A DNA stretch of 49,758 nt from an uncultured Clostridia bacterium. GTDB taxonomy: Bacteria > Bacillota > Clostridia > Oscillospirales > Ruminococcaceae. Below, piece after piece: positions 9,491-49,384 of the stretch (the stretch's first letter is position 1; every line of letters begins with the position of its first letter). The notes below the pieces were generated by a model. It was not told the origin of the DNA. It ran no database searches and worked only from the letters and a program-made list of their open reading frames with translations. The stretch covers positions 88,108 to 137,865 of the forward strand of contig CANQYD010000003.1 in the NCBI GenBank assembly GCA_947627985.1, read 5' to 3'. Position numbers and translations under genes: made by a program.

Positions 9491-9576
9491 GGGCGAAGCC
9501 CGACCGCGCGCAAGCGCGCGGTCGCTGCCGCGGCTCCGCCGCGGCAGCCGGCGCCTTCGGCGCCGGGGCTTCGCCC
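9491..9576. repeat. Cloverleaf core, copy A1
   Basis: The outer stem GGGCGAAGCCC (9491-9501) pairs with GGGCTTCGCCC (9566-9576). Three hairpins abut without any linker: GACCGCGCGC around AA (9502-9523), GCTGCCGCGGC around TCC (9524-9548), and CGGCGCC around TTC (9549-9565). Confidence 0.85.
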
Positions 9577-9780
9577 TGCGTGCACCCTCCGGCTGCACAG
9601 AAAACAGACGTTAGAAGTCAGAGGACAGATTTTCATCTTCCACCCTCAGCTCCTATCAGTCTCCGGCATAGGCACCGACCCCGTCCCCACCCTTCAGCTC
9701 CTGCTTTTTCCCGTAAGAGGCACCCAGCCTTGCCACCGGGCTTGCACATATCACCGAACCTCGGTAGGAGCAGGGGGCAC

Positions 9781-9866
9781 GGGCGAAGCCCGACCGCGCG
9801 CAAGCGCGCGGTCGCTGCCGCGGCTCTGCCGCGGCAGCCGGCGCCTTCGGCGCCGGGGCTTCGCCC
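9781..9866. repeat. Cloverleaf core, copy A2
   Basis: Same structure as A1, shifted by 290 bp. The only difference is the middle hairpin loop, TCT instead of TCC, so every stem is preserved. Confidence 0.85.
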
Positions 9867-12611: not shown

Positions 12612-14114
12612 ATGAAAATCAAAAAGATATTGGCGCTGGCTCTGGTCGCGCTGATGATCGTCGCCCTCGTGGGCTGCGGAGGAGCAAGACGTAAAGTCGT
12701 CGAGCTGACTCTCTCCACCGAGGACAGCATGGCGATCCTTAACGCTGCCGGAATCCGTCTGCCCGAGGCTGACGAAGCTGCCGGCGCAAACTCCACTGTC
12801 AAGTGGTGCGCGCATTACGATCCTTTCCAGAACTACAGCGACGATGAAATCGTCAACACCGGTTTTTACACCTTTAAAGAGAAATACGGCGGAAGCCTTG
12901 AGTGGGTCCAGGTAGAGTGGGGCGAGCGTTGGAACGATCTTGCCCGTTATCTTCTTGCCGGCACCCCCCCGGATTTGTTCCCGGGCGAGTCCGCCATCTT
13001 CCCCTACTATGTCATGAAGGGCATGTTTGCCCCCGTCAACGACTACATAAACTTCGACGAGCCCCTCTGGGCTGACATGAAGGACTACGCCTACGACTTC
13101 TTCGGCATGGGCGACAACGTATATGCCGCGGTAGTCAGCGCCTCTTACGGCGAGGTCGTGCCTTACAACCGCAGAGTTATAAACGAGTGGGGATTTGACG
13201 ATCCCGCCGAGCTCTACGCCAACGATCAGTGGACTTGGGATAAGTTCTACGATATGTGCGTCGAGTTCTCCGATCCCGATGAGGACCGCTACGCTCTCGA
13301 CGGCTGGTACTTCTCCGCTTCCTTCTACAACTCCGTAGGTAAGGCTTTGGTGCCGTGGGATCCCGAGACCAACACCTTCTCCTCAAATCTTGACGACCCC
13401 GGCTTTGAAAGAGCCGCCGGATACCTCTACGATCTCAACAAGAACGAGTGCACCTATCCTTGGTGGAACACCTGGGCTTGCAGAGACGACTCCGCCAACG
13501 GAGCCGGCGTAAAGGACAGCAAGTGCCTCTTCTGGATCGTTGCTCCTTGGGGCTTCACCGCGACCGTTGCCGAGAACGCCAACACTTGGGGCGATACCAC
13601 CACCGAGCTGATGTTCGTTCCGCTTCCCCGTGATCCTCAGGGCGACGGCAAGTACTACATTCAGTCCTCGCCGACGGCTTACTGCATCATCAACGGCGCC
13701 ACCAACGGCGACGGCGCGGCTCTGATCATCACCTGCGACCGCTTCAAGGCGATCGACCCGACCGTCAGAGCCATCGATGAAAAGCAGCTCAGAGAGACCT
13801 ACGGCTGGACCGACGAGCTCATCGAGATGGATAAGCACTGCTACGATCTTGCCAACACCGGCAGCCCGATCGTCAACTACAACGACGGCTACGGCATCGA
13901 GCTCGACGGAATCGTCGGCTATGAGGGCGCTATCGGCGCTTCGGGACATGCAACTTCCCGCGACGCGGCTCAGACTTGGGCACAGCTCAAGGAGACCTAC
14001 TCCGATAACGTGGATTACTACATCGAGCAGCTCAACGCGGACGTCGCAGAGTTCATCGCAAGCGGCGGCAAGGCTGACGTAAGCGACCTCGCGGCTGAGA
14101 CGCCTACCGAGTAA
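12612..14114 (+). CDS. Extracellular solute-binding lipoprotein, copy 1
   Basis: A 500-residue protein with a lipoprotein signal peptide and lipobox ALVGC (Cys22). After it comes ELTLSTEDSMAILNAAGIRL, a stretch shared with the next gene. The body has the shape of a family 1 (sugar-type) ABC solute-binding protein: LLAGTPPDLFPG, then NRRVINEWGFDDPAEL, then WTWDKFYDMC. It would capture a solute at the outer face of the membrane. No permease or ATPase gene is adjacent, so it either supplies a transporter encoded elsewhere or is a sensor or scavenger. The start has GGAGG before the ATG. It has its own promoter and terminator, making it monocistronic. Confidence 0.9.
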   Translation: MKIKKILALALVALMIVALVGCGGARRKVVELTLSTEDSMAILNAAGIRLPEADEAAGANSTVKWCAHYDPFQNYSDDEIVNTGFYTFKEKYGGSLEWVQVEWGERWNDLARYLLAGTPPDLFPGESAIFPYYVMKGMFAPVNDYINFDEPLWADMKDYAYDFFGMGDNVYAAVVSASYGEVVPYNRRVINEWGFDDPAELYANDQWTWDKFYDMCVEFSDPDEDRYALDGWYFSASFYNSVGKALVPWDPETNTFSSNLDDPGFERAAGYLYDLNKNECTYPWWNTWACRDDSANGAGVKDSKCLFWIVAPWGFTATVAENANTWGDTTTELMFVPLPRDPQGDGKYYIQSSPTAYCIINGATNGDGAALIITCDRFKAIDPTVRAIDEKQLRETYGWTDELIEMDKHCYDLANTGSPIVNYNDGYGIELDGIVGYEGAIGASGHATSRDAAQTWAQLKETYSDNVDYYIEQLNADVAEFIASGGKADVSDLAAETPTE

Positions 14115-14256: not shown

Positions 14257-14320
14257 TGATTACGGCTGATTATTTTTTTATATCGGTTTTTGCAGAAAAA
14301 TTTACTTGGAGGTACGAAAA

Positions 14321-15775
14321 ATGCTTAAAAGAACGATTGCTCTTTTACTTGCGGCTGTGCTGATTCTGGCGCTTGTCGGCTGCGGAGGCAAAAAGAGAGT
14401 TCCTATCGAGCTGACGCTTTCGACGGAGGATTCCGAGGCTATCCTTAATGCCGCGGGTATCTATCTTCCCACCGTCGAGGATACGGCAGCCGCCGGAACT
14501 ACCATCAACTGGTATGCTTGGTTTGACGATTTCCACAACTATTCCGAGGGAGAAGTCGTAAACACCGGATACTTCACATTCAAGAACAGATACGGCTGCG
14601 ACATTGAGTGGACGGAATGCGTCTGGGACGAGAGATTCTCACAGCTTGCGAATCTCATGCTCGCCGGCACTTCCCCCGACTTCTACAACGCCGAGACGGA
14701 GAATTTCCCCTACTACGCTCTCCACGGCACTTTCCAGCCCATCAACCCCTACATAGACCTTGACGACCCGCTCTGGGACGGCATTTCCGACTATATGCGG
14801 ACCTACTTCTCGCTCGGCGACGACGTTTATCTTCTCTGCACCGACCTCTATTTCGGCAGCATTTTGGCATATAACCGCCGCGTCATCGACGAATGGGGCT
14901 TTGACGATCCCGCAGAGCTCTTCTACAACAACGAATGGACTTGGGACGAATTCTATGAGATGTGCGAAGACTTCTCGGACGACGACGACGAGCGCTATGC
15001 TCTCGACGGCTGGGTCTATTCAAGGGCGCTTCAGCGTTCCTGCGGCACCACCATCATCTCCTACGATCCCGAGACCGACAAGTTCATCTCCAACATGGAC
15101 GACGTCGCACTTGAGCGCGCCGGCAATCTGCTTTACGATCTCAACAAGAACCAGTGCGTCTGGCCCTACTATGAGCACGGCTACAAGGTGAGAAATCAGG
15201 GCGCTTCGGGCGCTGCCGACTTCGGCGACGGTCTTAAGGAAGGCGATCTCCTCTTCAGCTGCGGCGGTCCTTACCACATCACCGGTCCGGTTGAAGACAT
15301 CTCCGCCGACTATGCCGACGTCACCGCGAACGAGCTGATGTTCGTTCCGCTTCCGCGCGATCCTCAGGGCAACGGTCAGCAGCTTGTCGAGTCCGACCCG
15401 ATGGGTTACTGCATCGTCAAGAATGCTCCGAACCCCGAAGGAGTTGCGCTTCTTGCCATGTGCGACCGCTTCAAGGCGATCGATCCCACCGTCATGAGCG
15501 TCGACAGAAAGCAGAAGGTCGAGAAATATCTCTGGACCGACGAGATGCTCGACATGTACGACAAGTGCATCGAGCTTGCCAACGGCGATGACGTAATTCT
15601 TGCATACGAAGAGAACGCTCTCGGCTCGACCTTGGGAGTCATCTGCACCGACATCGAGAGAAACGGCATGCAGGCTGACGCCAAGACATGGGCTCAGATC
15701 AAGGAGGAGAACGAGGAGAGAATCCAGTATTACCTCGACGATCTGAACAACGAAGTCGCAAACTTCGTTCCCTGA
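14321..15775 (+). CDS. Extracellular solute-binding lipoprotein, copy 2
   Basis: A 484-residue paralogue of the preceding gene, with lipobox ALVGC (Cys21) and the shared post-signal stretch ELTLSTEDSEAILNAAGIYL. It has near-identical blocks such as NRRVIDEWGFDDPAEL, WTWDEFYEMC and RYALDGW, while the ligand-facing parts differ. This suggests an old tandem duplication with changed specificity. The ATG at 14321 is chosen because GGAGGT lies 7 nt upstream. It is followed after 18 bp by a small membrane-protein gene with its own ribosome binding site, so it may be bicistronic. No transporter membrane components are seen. Confidence 0.9.
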   Translation: MLKRTIALLLAAVLILALVGCGGKKRVPIELTLSTEDSEAILNAAGIYLPTVEDTAAAGTTINWYAWFDDFHNYSEGEVVNTGYFTFKNRYGCDIEWTECVWDERFSQLANLMLAGTSPDFYNAETENFPYYALHGTFQPINPYIDLDDPLWDGISDYMRTYFSLGDDVYLLCTDLYFGSILAYNRRVIDEWGFDDPAELFYNNEWTWDEFYEMCEDFSDDDDERYALDGWVYSRALQRSCGTTIISYDPETDKFISNMDDVALERAGNLLYDLNKNQCVWPYYEHGYKVRNQGASGAADFGDGLKEGDLLFSCGGPYHITGPVEDISADYADVTANELMFVPLPRDPQGNGQQLVESDPMGYCIVKNAPNPEGVALLAMCDRFKAIDPTVMSVDRKQKVEKYLWTDEMLDMYDKCIELANGDDVILAYEENALGSTLGVICTDIERNGMQADAKTWAQIKEENEERIQYYLDDLNNEVANFVP

Positions 15776-15793: not shown

Positions 15794-16231
15794 ATGAAAA
15801 AGAGAAGCTTTTGGCTGATGATGACGGGAATATCGCTATTTAACGGGCTGATGTTCTTCCTCACGTCGCTTTCGGCGATGAAAAAGGGGGTCGACGGAGT
15901 CGATAATCAGGCGGGACTTATTTTCATTCCGCTTTTATGGGTCATGGCTGCTGGATTTCTGCTGGTTATGACGGCATTCACGCTTATGATCGGCATTGCG
16001 ATCAAAAAGGACAGGAAGATCGGTTTTTCGGAGATTTTTAAATTCCGCGGGCTGAGCGTTCCGGCTAAGGTCGGGAGGATATGCTTTATCGGCTTCTCCG
16101 GGGTGCTGATGATCTTCGGGATGATGCTCTTCACGGGGGAACTCTTGGGGGCGGTTATGTACTCCTTATCCGGCGGGGTGCTGCTTATAAGCCTTTGGAC
16201 ATGGCTTCGTGCCGCTGTCGTAAGGGCGTGA
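15794..16231 (+). CDS. Small four-segment membrane protein of unknown function
   Basis: A 145-residue protein with four hydrophobic segments (about 8-28, 42-66, 92-111 and 117-137) separated by short basic loops. A GAAAGGAG ribosome binding site lies in the 18-bp gap after the lipoprotein gene, so it is probably co-transcribed with it. No family is recognised. It is too short and lacks the EAA-type loop of an ABC permease, so it is not a disguised transporter subunit. Confidence 0.7.
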   Translation: MKKRSFWLMMTGISLFNGLMFFLTSLSAMKKGVDGVDNQAGLIFIPLLWVMAAGFLLVMTAFTLMIGIAIKKDRKIGFSEIFKFRGLSVPAKVGRICFIGFSGVLMIFGMMLFTGELLGAVMYSLSGGVLLISLWTWLRAAVVRA

Positions 16232-16302: not shown

Positions 16303-16392
16303 TCCCGGGCGAAGCCCCCGCCGGCTGAAAGCCGGCGGACCCGCGCCTTCGGCGCGGGTCGGTACGCTTTGCGTACCGGGCTTCGCCCGGGA
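16303..16392. repeat. Cloverleaf core, copy C (single)
   Basis: The outer stem TCCCGGGCGAAGCCC (16303-16317) pairs with its complement at 16378-16392. There is a one-base linker, then three abutting hairpins: CGCCGGCT around GAA (16319-16337), GACCCGCGCC around TTC (16338-16360), and GGTACGC around TTT (16361-16377). The arm sequences differ from those of copies A and B, but the architecture is the same. It lies in the 284-bp gap before yabP. Confidence 0.85.
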
Positions 16393-16515: not shown

Positions 16516-16788
16516 ATGGAAGAAATGACAGCGCATCACAGCGCGATTTTGCAGGACCGTCAAACCTTGGAGCTTTCCGGCGTCACCGACGTGGACAGCT
16601 TCGATGAGAACGAGATTTCCCTCTACACGACCTTGGGCGAGATGGTGATCCGCGGGAGGGCTTTGCACGTCAACGCGATGAACGTCGACACCGGGGATAT
16701 GCAGATCGACGGGGATATCCGCTCGGTCGTCTACGGTGACAAAGAGCGCAAGAAAAAGACCGGGCTCTTCGGCAAGCTGACAAGATGA
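16516..16788 (+). CDS. yabP: Sporulation protein YabP
   Basis: A 90-residue protein matching the YabP/YqfC-type sporulation family: LELSGVTDVDSFDENEISLY..LGEMVIRGRALHV. In Bacillus, YabP works with YabQ in mother-cell assembly of the spore cortex. The ATG follows AAAGGAG. CATATACA at 16486-16493 resembles a sigma-E -10 element, but no clear -35 is seen. It overlaps yabQ by 4 bp (ATGA), implying translational coupling. Confidence 0.9.
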   Translation: MEEMTAHHSAILQDRQTLELSGVTDVDSFDENEISLYTTLGEMVIRGRALHVNAMNVDTGDMQIDGDIRSVVYGDKERKKKTGLFGKLTR

Positions 16789-40420: not shown

Positions 40421-40508
40421 GGGGCGAAGCCCCCCGGCGCCGAAGGCGCCGGCTGCCTCAGCGAAGCTGAGGCAGAAGCCGTGCTTCGCACGGCTTGGGC
40501 TTCGCCCC
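40421..40508. repeat. Cloverleaf core, copy B1
   Basis: Outer stem GGGGCGAAGCCC (40421-40432) with GGGCTTCGCCCC (40497-40508); a one-base linker, then CCGGCGCC around GAA (40434-40452), CTGCCTCAGC around GAA (40453-40475) and AAGCCGTGC around TTC (40476-40496). The hairpins directly abut. Confidence 0.85.
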
Positions 40509-40697
40509 GAGCCCTCTCACCCCACTCAATGTACGACAGAGGCACCGCACCCCGCGCCAAGCCTTCACATAACACCAAGCCCTGATAGAAGCATCATACT
40601 TCCCTCTGATTCGGCTCTATCGGGACTCGGAGGGGTGTGAAAACCCGGGCACGGGGCTGAGTGGGTCTTAGGGGGAATGGCAGGGGAGGAGACTGCA

Positions 40698-40784
40698 GGG
40701 GCGAAGCCCCCGGCGCCGAAGGCGCCGGCTGCCTCAGCGAAGCTGAGGCAGAAGCCGTGCTTCGCACGGCTTGGGCTTCGCCCC
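40698..40784. repeat. Cloverleaf core, copy B2
   Basis: Same three hairpins as B1 (40710-40728, 40729-40751, 40752-40772), with the outer stem 40698-40709/40773-40784 and no linker base at all. The surrounding sequence has diverged more than the core. Confidence 0.85.
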
Positions 40785-42527: not shown

Positions 42528-43485
42528 TAGATGGCGGAAATTGTTAGATCAGATGACATAGGCGGGGACTTTTCCCCTCTGCGTTTTAAAGGGCTTTTAG
42601 GCTTTAGAAGTTAGAATGTCAGAGATTAGAAATCCCGCGCCGAGCCTTAGTTGAGACAAGTCAAAAAGGTTTTGCCCCGCTTTTCCTCAAAAAGCGGGCG
42701 GGTTCCAAGGGCGGAGCCCTTGGTCGCGCTCCGCAGAGCGCGAAATCTCCGCAAAAAGGACAGCGATAGCTGTCCTTTTTGCTTTTATCGTTCAAAAGAG
42801 GGCGACAAAGTCGCCCGAAGCCGGAGGGGTGTGGGGAACCGTGCAACGGTGCCCCACAGCCGGAAAAGGGCTTGGGGAAAACCCCGCAGGGGTTGTCCCC
42901 ACCATAACTATCTGTTGGGCGAGACGCACAGCGAAAACTTATTACAAATTTCGGACGTGAAAGCCGGAGGGGTGTAGGGAACCCCGCAGGGGTGCCCCAC
43001 AGAGCCGAGCGAAGCGAGGCAAAAGCCCCATCTTCCAAGGGAGAGGGGCTGGGGGTGAGGGTATCCCGGAAAGGGGTAAGCAGAAGCTGGTTTTGTTCCT
43101 GCTCAACTGCCCTTGGCAACAACGATTGCCTCGGTTGTTTCGCAGACAAAACCCCGCGTCTGCGGGAAAACCCCGCAGGGGTTGTCCACAACATAGTAGC
43201 AGCGTAGGAAGGAGTTAAATAATTGCTTAAATATAAAATAGCAGCCCCTCCCTTACCTACCCATTGTTAAAAGGTATTCGTTCATTTTCCCGCCGGAAAA
43301 TGAACTCATGCTATTTTAAGCAGACCCTCTCCCCACTGAAGTCTGCACAGACTTATAGTCAAGCGTCGCCTCTCCCCCTAAAAGGGGGAGAGGCGTGAAA
43401 CCCCCGCACGGTTTGTCCCCACCCCAACATAAAAGCAGGCGAATAAGCATTCAAAACATTTTAATAATGAGAATTAACGAAATAA
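42528..43485. other. About 1-kb non-coding region rich in small palindromes
   Basis: No frame here has a credible start and product. It holds two kinds of structure. Near 42675-42810 lies a row of separate palindromes: CCCGCTTTT/AAAAAGCGGG, CCAAGGGC/GCCCTTGG, CGCGCTC/GAGCGCG, AAAAAGGACAGC/GCTGTCCTTTTT and GGGCGAC/GTCGCCC. From 42830 to 43425 there are five related nested hairpins around a GCA loop. A 13-bp palindrome CGCCTCTCCCCCT/AGGGGGAGAGGCG lies near 43369-43396. Confidence 0.7.
42830..43001. repeat. Nested GCA-loop hairpin family (three clustered copies)
   Basis: Copy 1 (42830-42858): TGTGGGG-AA-CCGT-GCA-ACGG-TG-CCCCACA. Copy 2 (42873-42901): TGGGG-AA-ACCCC-GCA-GGGGT-TGT-CCCCA. Copy 3 (about 42975-43001): TAGGG-AA-CCCC-GCA-GGGG-TG-CCCCA. 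The inner stem changes on both sides (CCGT/ACGG versus CCCC/GGGG). Two further partial copies lie near 43163-43188 and 43396-43422. Confidence 0.7.
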
Positions 43486-48700: not shown

Positions 48701-49384
48701 GCTGCATTAAAGTTTTACGCTTTAGCGCGGAATGCTATATTTATGATAGTTAGATGAATGAAGCAGTAATTCTATCAAAAACGCATCGTGATAAAGTTTT
48801 AAACTTTAATACGGCATATTCTTGCTTTTCGGGATTTTCTTCTTATTCCTAAAGCATAGGGGAGATGATCTCGATATCTGCCTTCTTGAAAGAGCAAGGG
48901 TGGAGCAATGCCAGTTATTTCTTAACAATGCACCGTGCTAAAGCTCTAAACTTTAAATCGGGCTGAGCTTAAATTTGGAGCTTCCAGTTCCCGGCTATTT
49001 TAAAAAGATGATTTCCATATTAGACTTTAAAGATGTATCTAATGAAGTGGAAGATGGTCTTCTTTATTAAGAAGAAGAATGTGCCACATTAAAGTTCTAC
49101 ACTTTAGCGTGGCGCTTATATTTTGAAAACTGGTGATTGCGAAAGTAGTTCGCTTTGGATTGAAAACATATTCCACGCTAAAGTTCTAAACTTTAATGCG
49201 ACACTGTTCATTTAGCTGATGGAGAGTATATGGACGCAATAGTAATTTAATTTGCAAAATATGGCGTGCTAAAGTTCTAAACTTTAACGCGGCTGCTACT
49301 GTTTTATAATGGTAGGCTAATGCAATAGCAATCTCCCTTTGAAAATATCAATGTGTCGCGCTAAAGTTCTAAACTTCATCGCAG
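48701..49384. repeat. Degenerate tandem array of palindrome-bearing units (seven copies)
   Basis: Seven 30-bp palindromes at 48701, 48785, 48932, 49083, 49172, 49263 and 49355. Core: TAAAGTT-CTA-AACTTTA, flanked by a two-by-two mismatch and then an outer arm that varies yet stays partly complementary (CCAC with GTGG in the fourth; CGT with ACG in the second). Spacing between starts is 84, 147, 151, 89, 91 and 92. The AT-rich linkers are also related (TGCAATAGTAAT, TTTGAAAATAT), so the whole ~90-bp unit was amplified. No cas gene, integrase or credible ORF lies here. Confidence 0.85.

Follow-up and report, generated by a model that had tools for sequence, protein, structure and literature searches.

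Five cloverleaves in the window and their kin in the genome

The window, by which we mean the whole stretch of 49,758 nucleotides analysed here, carries five copies of a dispersed cloverleaf element, all of them at the positions given in the original prediction (Table 1). Two pairs (A1/A2 and B1/B2) are accompanied by a solo copy, C, and four of the five copies lie between divergent genes. Copy C is located 75 nt past the stop of an ORF (15794-16231, +) and 127 nt ahead of a YabP-family gene (16516-16788, +); the protein of that upstream ORF, present in 4/31 genomes, proved useless as an orthology marker. The claimed fold, an outer stem enclosing three abutting hairpins, was reproduced by DNA folding for 5/5 copies, with z = -7.4 to -10.2 and with 0/200 shuffles equally stable for each copy. 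With RNA parameters, three of the window copies were folded and gave the same kind of structure, at -78 to -94 kcal/mol.

The similarity between A1 and A2, and that between B1 and B2, extends beyond the cloverleaf into a repeated spacer of ~200 nt, the start-to-start spacing being 290 nt for the A pair and 276 nt for the B pair. The hairpins of groups A, B and C had been described as completely different, which overstates the case for A and B: once B is read on the opposite strand the two are similar, sharing a CGGCGCC stem at one end and a CTGCC near the start of their middle arms.

Table 1. Positions of the cloverleaf copies and their parts within the window
Feature	Position	Details
Copy A1, outer stem 5' arm	9491..9501	GGGCGAAGCCC; pairs with 3' arm 9566-9576
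Copy A1, hairpin 1	9502..9523	
Copy A1, hairpin 2	9524..9548	loop TCC
Copy A1, hairpin 3	9549..9565	stem CGGCGCC, loop TTC
Copy A1, outer stem 3' arm	9566..9576	GGGCTTCGCCC
A1-A2 spacer	9577..9780	~200 nt, repeated, composite tandem unit; repeat 227 nt, 92%
Copy A2	9781..9866	outer stem 9781-9791/9856-9866; hairpins 9792-9813, 9814-9838 (loop TCT), 9839-9855
Copy C, solo	16307..16388	outer stem 16307-16317/16378-16388; stem extension to 16303-16392
Copy C, hairpins	16318-16338, 16339-16359, 16361-16377	one linker base
Copy B1	40422..40507	outer stem 40422-40432/40497-40507; hairpins 40434-40452, 40453-40475, 40476-40496; one linker base
B1-B2 spacer	40508..40698	repeated
Copy B2	40699..40783	outer stem 40699-40709/40773-40783; hairpins 40710-40728, 40729-40751, 40752-40772

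The spacers of both pairs, like those at loci L026, L028 and L035, are a mosaic of repeats, with motifs resembling AGAAGTCAGAGGTCAG and CTTCTATCRGGGTTCGG, and stop at the cloverleaves. Other repeats were also observed in the window: a 36 nt unit present six times at 48778-49383, with a palindrome-like TAAAGTTCTAAACTTTA and spacings of 89-151 nt; a further cluster of short hairpin-like units, GGGGTTGTCCCC and GTGCCCCACAG, at 42818-43426; and two tandem paralogous genes (12612-14114 and 14306-15775) with repeats at a spacing of 1706, the first of which has no Pfam match.

The genome from which the window comes (G000; relatives are labelled G0xx and loci Lxxx), 2.16 Mb in size, contains the exact pattern GGGCGAAGCCC-N45..75-GGGCTTCGCCC 190 times; a reversed control contains it 0 times, and 199 occurrences are obtained when the outer mini-loops are relaxed to any three bases. 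Neither outcome named in the original prediction as a refutation, a lack of further copies or a loss of pairing in them, was observed: the genome has 190 copies, and pairing is kept. We examined the anatomy of the element in a sample of 838 kb, 39% of the genome and including the window, which contains 50 loose-pattern copies. The best interior tiling has three arms in 50/50 of these copies, and 1245 of the 1255 arm pairs are Watson-Crick, with 4 GT and 6 mismatches, a perfection slightly overstated because the tiling trims terminal mismatches. Junction linkers measure 0 nt in 171/200 cases, 1 nt in 26 and 2 nt in 3, and all four linkers are zero in 26/50 copies. Arms are 6-11 base pairs long and are capped mainly by TTC or GAA loops and their relatives. 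The parsed elements comprise 71 distinct stems, 21 of which recur in more than one element, and one compensated base pair is the sole difference in nineteen pairs of perfect stems. Arm sequences differ from species to species and do not share the consensus expected of a 20-40 nt REP palindrome.

The three-arm architecture was also recovered by a sequence-agnostic finder defined by an outer stem of at least 6 bp and abutting perfect hairpins: it found 47 three-arm and 6 two-arm chains in the 838 kb and no chain in three Markov-2 copies of that sequence. Among the six two-arm chains, a single different repeat accounts for two, and the remaining four have stems of 5-6 bp. A dispersed two-hairpin repeat at L023 (7576-7630) and L175 (6642-6700) in the same genome combines CGAGGGGC and TCGCCCGTCGCAACGGGCGA inside a short stem, and is possibly a three-way relative of the cloverleaf or possibly a separate repeat. 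At loci outside the 838 kb sample, 119 of 120 tileable matches are three-armed, a set in which only cloverleaf-tiling matches are counted, in which some copies are counted twice (as stretches and as contigs of the same genomes) and in which a weak Streptomyces match is among the 119; a further 28 matches, nearly all from other phyla, are untileable. The sole two-arm match is found in G018 (L101), and the pairs of the 120 matches comprise 3299 Watson-Crick, 15 GT and 54 mismatched.

Copies are of two kinds, solo copies and tandem units of ~275-300 bp with the repeated ~200 nt spacer, and part of the high copy number of the genome arises because the units are composite and tandem. For solo copies the similarity between copies stops ~20 nt beyond the outer stem. 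Families of near-identical copies occupy different sites, 12 of one type in the stretches of this genome. In G004 an extra 15 bp stem, CCCTCATCTTCTGCC, encloses one cloverleaf outside its usual outer stem (L053, 9587-9711).

Distribution and an AT-rich second lineage

The exact pattern is present in 14 of 30 same-genus relatives, or 15/31 with the genome of the window included, and was found in none of 29 genomes of other genera. Counted by the exact outer stem, the 15 carriers have from 1 to 190 copies. A RecA tree of 30 genomes groups 14 carriers in a single clade (support 99/99); the remaining carrier, G026, has one copy and lies at the base of the other side of the tree, the side on which all 15 non-carriers are found. 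The sequence-free finder detected no chain in 283 kb from 8 of the non-carriers. At class level the exact pattern is found in 1/391 genomes, that one being the genome of the window itself, and a loose pattern, GGGCNNNGCCC, has matches in 75/394 order-level genomes; among other genera, the subset of these loose matches inspected by eye lacks the look of a cloverleaf.

The named contigs among the matches listed come mostly from 'uncultured Clostridia' MAGs of a Lapin series, a name that points to rabbit gut, and from the MAG RUG14213. Candidate cloverleaves in Roseomonas, Magnetococcales, Chloroflexi, Pirellulales, Actinomycetota, Ignavibacteria, Saprospiraceae and Panacagrimonas were discarded, as those tiled among the matches listed are not three-armed, and none of those tiled from the 4 viral contigs among the matches listed is a three-arm cloverleaf. 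The lone exception among the tiled other-phylum matches listed is Streptomyces L122, a weak tiling with two imperfect arms, and a rescan of Bacteroides L132 gave no pattern match. Among the genomes examined, the element is restricted to one clade, G026 and RUG14213. A search of the open-access PMC literature found no description of such an element.

RUG14213, a MAG of a rumen series, has ~35% G+C and contains at least six pattern copies with the same outer stem, a sharing that is partly due to the search having used that pattern. Five of the six have AT-rich arms, and the sixth (L144) has a longer interior. In 117 kb of this MAG the sequence-free finder returned 11 three-arm and 3 two-arm chains, compared with 0 three-arm and 0.7 two-arm chains per round in an order-2 Markov control on a slightly larger set. 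The additional three-arm cloverleaves, about one per 10 kb, have differing outer stems, for example CGGCGGCGAGCC, GCGAAAGCC and GGCAAAAACC, several of which look like drift around GGCGAAGCC. These variants led us to reject GGGCGAAGCCC as an invariant recognition sequence. They also carry the predicted principle, that the fold and not the sequence is kept, further than had been claimed, since here the outer stem varies as well as the arms. Four relatives of RUG14213 gave no chain with the sequence-free finder in 207 kb, and the exact pattern is found in 0/59 relatives. Inspected by eye, each of the five homologous pattern copies of RUG14213 is separated by 0-32 nt from the stop codon of an ORF on the list, and their flanks seem unrelated right up to the outer stem. 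At three loci of this MAG (L332, 2576-2697; L309, 498-572; L329, 5745-5808) hairpin chains, three-arm and one two-arm, stand beside a recurring ATAATGTTCGCAGACAAAT or TCCATTGAATGAC, and are perhaps another repeat family.

Conservation in place, genomic position and strand symmetry

Two orthologous sites allowed the element to be followed in place. At the pho site a cloverleaf lies between phoU and the regulator gene (phoB) in six species, within a pst-pho-like cluster of two permeases, an ABC ATPase, PhoU, a response regulator and a histidine kinase (Pfam). In G016, a seventh species with a near-identical regulator, a different gene lies upstream and the cloverleaf is absent. Across the 6 species none of the 74 stem positions varies; in the same species the third codon positions of the regulator differ in 605 of 3360 comparisons (18%) and the next 60 nt in 84/900 (9.3%). 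The third loop is variable, and in G028 the first (A-arm) loop has been flipped from TTC to GAA. The cluster is ~90-91% identical by BLAST among four species (L199, L200, L198 and L197), although their RecA proteins differ clearly, and it was possibly transferred horizontally with its cloverleaf.

At the ilv site the cloverleaf lies ~85 nt upstream of ilvD in 7 of 14 clade genomes and is absent there from the other 7, and in 6 of the 7 ilvC is found within 300 nt before it. Among the 22/30 loci scanned, no cloverleaf was found upstream of ilvD in the 8 genomes from outside the clade. The arms are homologous in 6/7 elements; that of G015 has other arms and was excluded from the difference counts. 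In the six species compared, ilvD third positions differ in 3416/8250 comparisons (41%), the A stem in 0/180, the outer stem in 5/330 (1.5%), the C stem in 35/210 (17%, partly a misparsed G010 row) and the A loop in 25/45 (56%). The B arm, which is outside these counts, varies in length and sequence between species and is paired except for one G-T, an indication that stem sequence is unconstrained in some arms. In G020 the A loop is flipped, TCC for GGA, and in the genome of the window the whole element is inverted relative to the others, with one broken outer pair. An alignment of all seven sequences has both-sided changes in 6 pairs, against 1.1 expected from shuffles, and pairing cells of 94.1% against 90.5%. 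At both sites, then, pairing is kept while loops change, and both loops and a whole element have been inverted in place.

Genes were called with a purpose-made codon-score caller. One of 103 element rows lies inside a called gene; without this row, 10 edge rows and 1 duplicate, 91 placed elements remain, of which 52 lie in tandem, 21 in divergent and 18 in convergent gaps. Solo elements between tandem genes are usually found just downstream of a stop codon: 33/41 are closer to the upstream stop (sign test p 1e-4), with medians of 57 nt to that stop and 154 nt to the next start. The genome of the window alone gives 13/18 (p 0.096). Terminator-like hairpins are found in 5/34 gaps with an element and in 31/103 without, a difference that is not significant (p 0.11) and comes from searched stretches of unequal length.

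Whether the fold is kept as DNA or as RNA had been left open in the original prediction, and the base pairs and loops favour DNA and not RNA. Among 150 distinct elements (identical copies removed and only cloverleaf-tiling matches used), 62 of 4064 pair cells are non-Watson-Crick: AC 18, GT 16, CT 14 and others 14. The G-T share is 0.4%, compared with 5.9% (28/477) in 22 distinct tRNAs from the same sequences, collected with a finder that admits GT and no other mismatches (Fisher p 1.6e-17). In solo elements between tandem genes the sense-strand loops comprise 46 GNA, 46 TNC and 22 other (loop and stem parsing covered 89/103 rows). The balance differs between arms: the arm transcribed first has 23 GNA and 12 TNC, and the other two have 23 and 34. 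The loops of rRNA are strongly one-sided, GAAA occurring 99 times as often as UUUC according to an excerpt of PMC8794818. TTTT is missing from the 8 nt next to the outer stem, on both flanks, in all 88 carrier elements; among the five RUG14213 copies, L310 precedes a TTTTT and two more have T-rich sides. Rfam covariance models run on the window gave only a tRNA at the gathering threshold. Because G-T pairs are scarce and loops are balanced overall, the fold looks to be kept in strand-symmetric DNA, a reading that these counts support short of proof, since G-T intermediates could also be lost through frequent repair by template switching.

A mobile origin linked to IS200, REP or RAYT systems, as also envisaged in the original prediction, found no support. 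The Y1_Tnp family (PF01797) is found in 8/31 genomes of the genus, 7 of them carriers, and is thus missing from 8/15 carriers, including G003 (14 copies, 100% complete), G010 (13 copies, 99%) and G020 (68 copies, only 76% complete). A terminal GTAG was found at 1 of the 178 ends of 89 carrier-clade elements and at 1 of the 40 ends of 20 RUG14213 elements, and CGTC at 0 in either set. The two Y1_Tnp loci in the genome of the window show, by eye in the printed loci, IS200-like ends and no cloverleaf, and we rejected a RAYT or IS200 transposase as a necessary partner. The outer stem is an inverted repeat, and no target-site duplication was seen by eye in the printed flanks.

Interpretation and comparison with known systems

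We propose, with a probability of roughly 0.4, that the element is a REP-like element acting at the DNA level whose four-way-junction shape is selected and perhaps read by a junction-binding factor. When a strand becomes single during replication or transcription, or the DNA is negatively supercoiled, the ~75-100 nt would fold into a four-way junction made of one outer stem and exactly three abutting hairpins. Mini-hairpins of the GCGAAGC type are stable in DNA. Selection would act on the shape of this junction in DNA, and template switching between arms would repair or swap pairs and flip loops. A factor such as HU, a Holliday-junction enzyme or an SMC/topology protein might then read the junction at gene ends, where it would serve as a landmark or a supercoil sink, a weaker step of the proposal; HU, RuvA, RecU/RuvC and SMC are all candidates for reading junctions. 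The requirement of a Holliday-like junction for four linker-free helices would explain why there are three arms. The architecture with its three arms, its Watson-Crick perfection and its dispersal can be read directly from the genomes, as can the restricted occurrence among those examined, the pairing kept at two orthologous sites, the inversions in place and the usual position after a stop codon in tandem gaps. The shape persists while most of the sequence changes, a hint that the cell contains a reader of the form of the DNA that ignores its sequence. Within the clade of the window most outer stems share one sequence, and recognition there may be partly by sequence. Against the proposal, the element is dispensable at a given site, 7/14 clade genomes being without it upstream of ilvD; template switching alone could keep the pairing without any function; the ilv B arm has changed in length and sequence; the loop balance varies with arm position; and the scarcity of G-T pairs would follow from frequent repair of this kind at whatever level selection acts.

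Selfish, non-autonomous mobile DNA (REPIN- or MITE-like), with hairpins that serve only mobilisation in trans by an enzyme acting on single-stranded DNA and a location after genes that is merely the least harmful place to insert, would account for the spread in copy number across the 15 carriers and for near-identical families at different sites, the twelve copies in the genome of the window and the five RUG14213 copies with their unrelated-looking flanks. We consider it rather unlikely: no transposase is associated with the element, Y1_Tnp being missing from more than half of the carriers and the two in the genome of the window looking like ordinary IS200; no target-site duplication was seen by eye; and the pairing, which a dead insertion would not need, is intact in place at pho and ilv. 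It is this retention of pairing over long divergence that disfavours a purely selfish origin. A cloverleaf in the 3' untranslated region of an RNA could instead stabilise the upstream mRNA, stall ribosomes near the stop or end transcription without a U tract. The bias of solo tandem elements towards the upstream stop, the very stable RNA folds and the smaller, non-significant share of terminator-like hairpins in gaps with an element all point that way, and for E. coli an excerpt of PMC12306157 reports ribosome stalling by REPs located no more than 15 nt from a stop codon. An RNA role nevertheless seems unlikely to us, disfavoured by base-pair purity and overall strand symmetry, since G-T is not enriched over A-C and the loops show no overall strand preference, both unlike structured RNA; moreover, 21/91 elements lie between divergent genes, four window copies among them, TTTT is missing beside the carrier elements and the window has no Rfam match to the element.

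Purely mutational palindromes, made and mended by template switching without recognition or function, are in our view very improbable. Loop inversion and arm homogenisation are described as marks of template switching in excerpts of PMC8604942 and PMC8794818, the former including ttc/gaa inversion in yeast hairpins, and loop inversion and compensated pairs are found here, as is an ilv B arm that has changed and yet remains paired. The three-arm rule argues against such an origin, which leaves unexplained the three arms with their short or absent linkers, the limitation, among the genomes examined, to a single clade and one further MAG, and the A and outer stems that are nearly unchanged at 41% third-position divergence.

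A more far-reaching version of the proposed junction element is doubtful, though we find it worth stating: a chromosomal signal of shape only, a Holliday-junction mimic made of an outer stem and exactly three arms with almost no linkers, in at least two Clostridia lineages, that would be read at gene ends by a junction-specific protein, selected in place and tolerant of almost any sequence. Being free in sequence, such a signal would be invisible to homology searches. Searches for repeat and RNA families use sequence, or covariance models that still depend on it in part, whereas what is kept here is a shape, shared by genomes with 35% and with 51-56% G+C. Should a protein read this shape, it would represent a class of chromosomal signals so far invisible to annotation. 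In addition, the many near-copies, together with the flipped loops and the inverted element at orthologous sites, make template-switch palindrome repair measurable in natural populations.

Several known systems share features with the element. The double-hairpin elements of fungal and algal mitochondria have variable stems and a kept fold, and are likewise mobile-looking palindromes, but they are organellar and have two hairpins, whereas here three hairpins and an enclosing stem are found in bacterial chromosomes. Quasipalindrome repair has in common with the element its compensated pairs, few intermediates and loop inversion; it is, however, a mutation process and not an element, and provides no reason for exactly three abutting arms. 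The ends of IS200/IS605 elements and the targets of REP-associated tyrosine transposases are hairpins recognised in single-stranded DNA, as an excerpt of PMC3733652 describes, and the element too would form hairpins in single-stranded DNA, but no such gene tracks it and the IS200-like copies in the genome of the window have other ends. It resembles the REP, BIME and REPIN repeats in being a short palindromic extragenic repeat in high copy and often just 3' of genes, and its composite tandem arrays resemble BIMEs. Unlike these, it has hardly any GTAG and no CGTC tag, no link to RAYT and no arm consensus, and where a REP is a hairpin of 20-40 nt, the element is a four-way junction of ~75-100 nt that, in sequence and predicted fold, has the four helices without unpaired bases of a Holliday-junction-like (4H) structure. 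As judged from its sequence, it is best read as an extragenic repeat, REP-like and new in its architecture.
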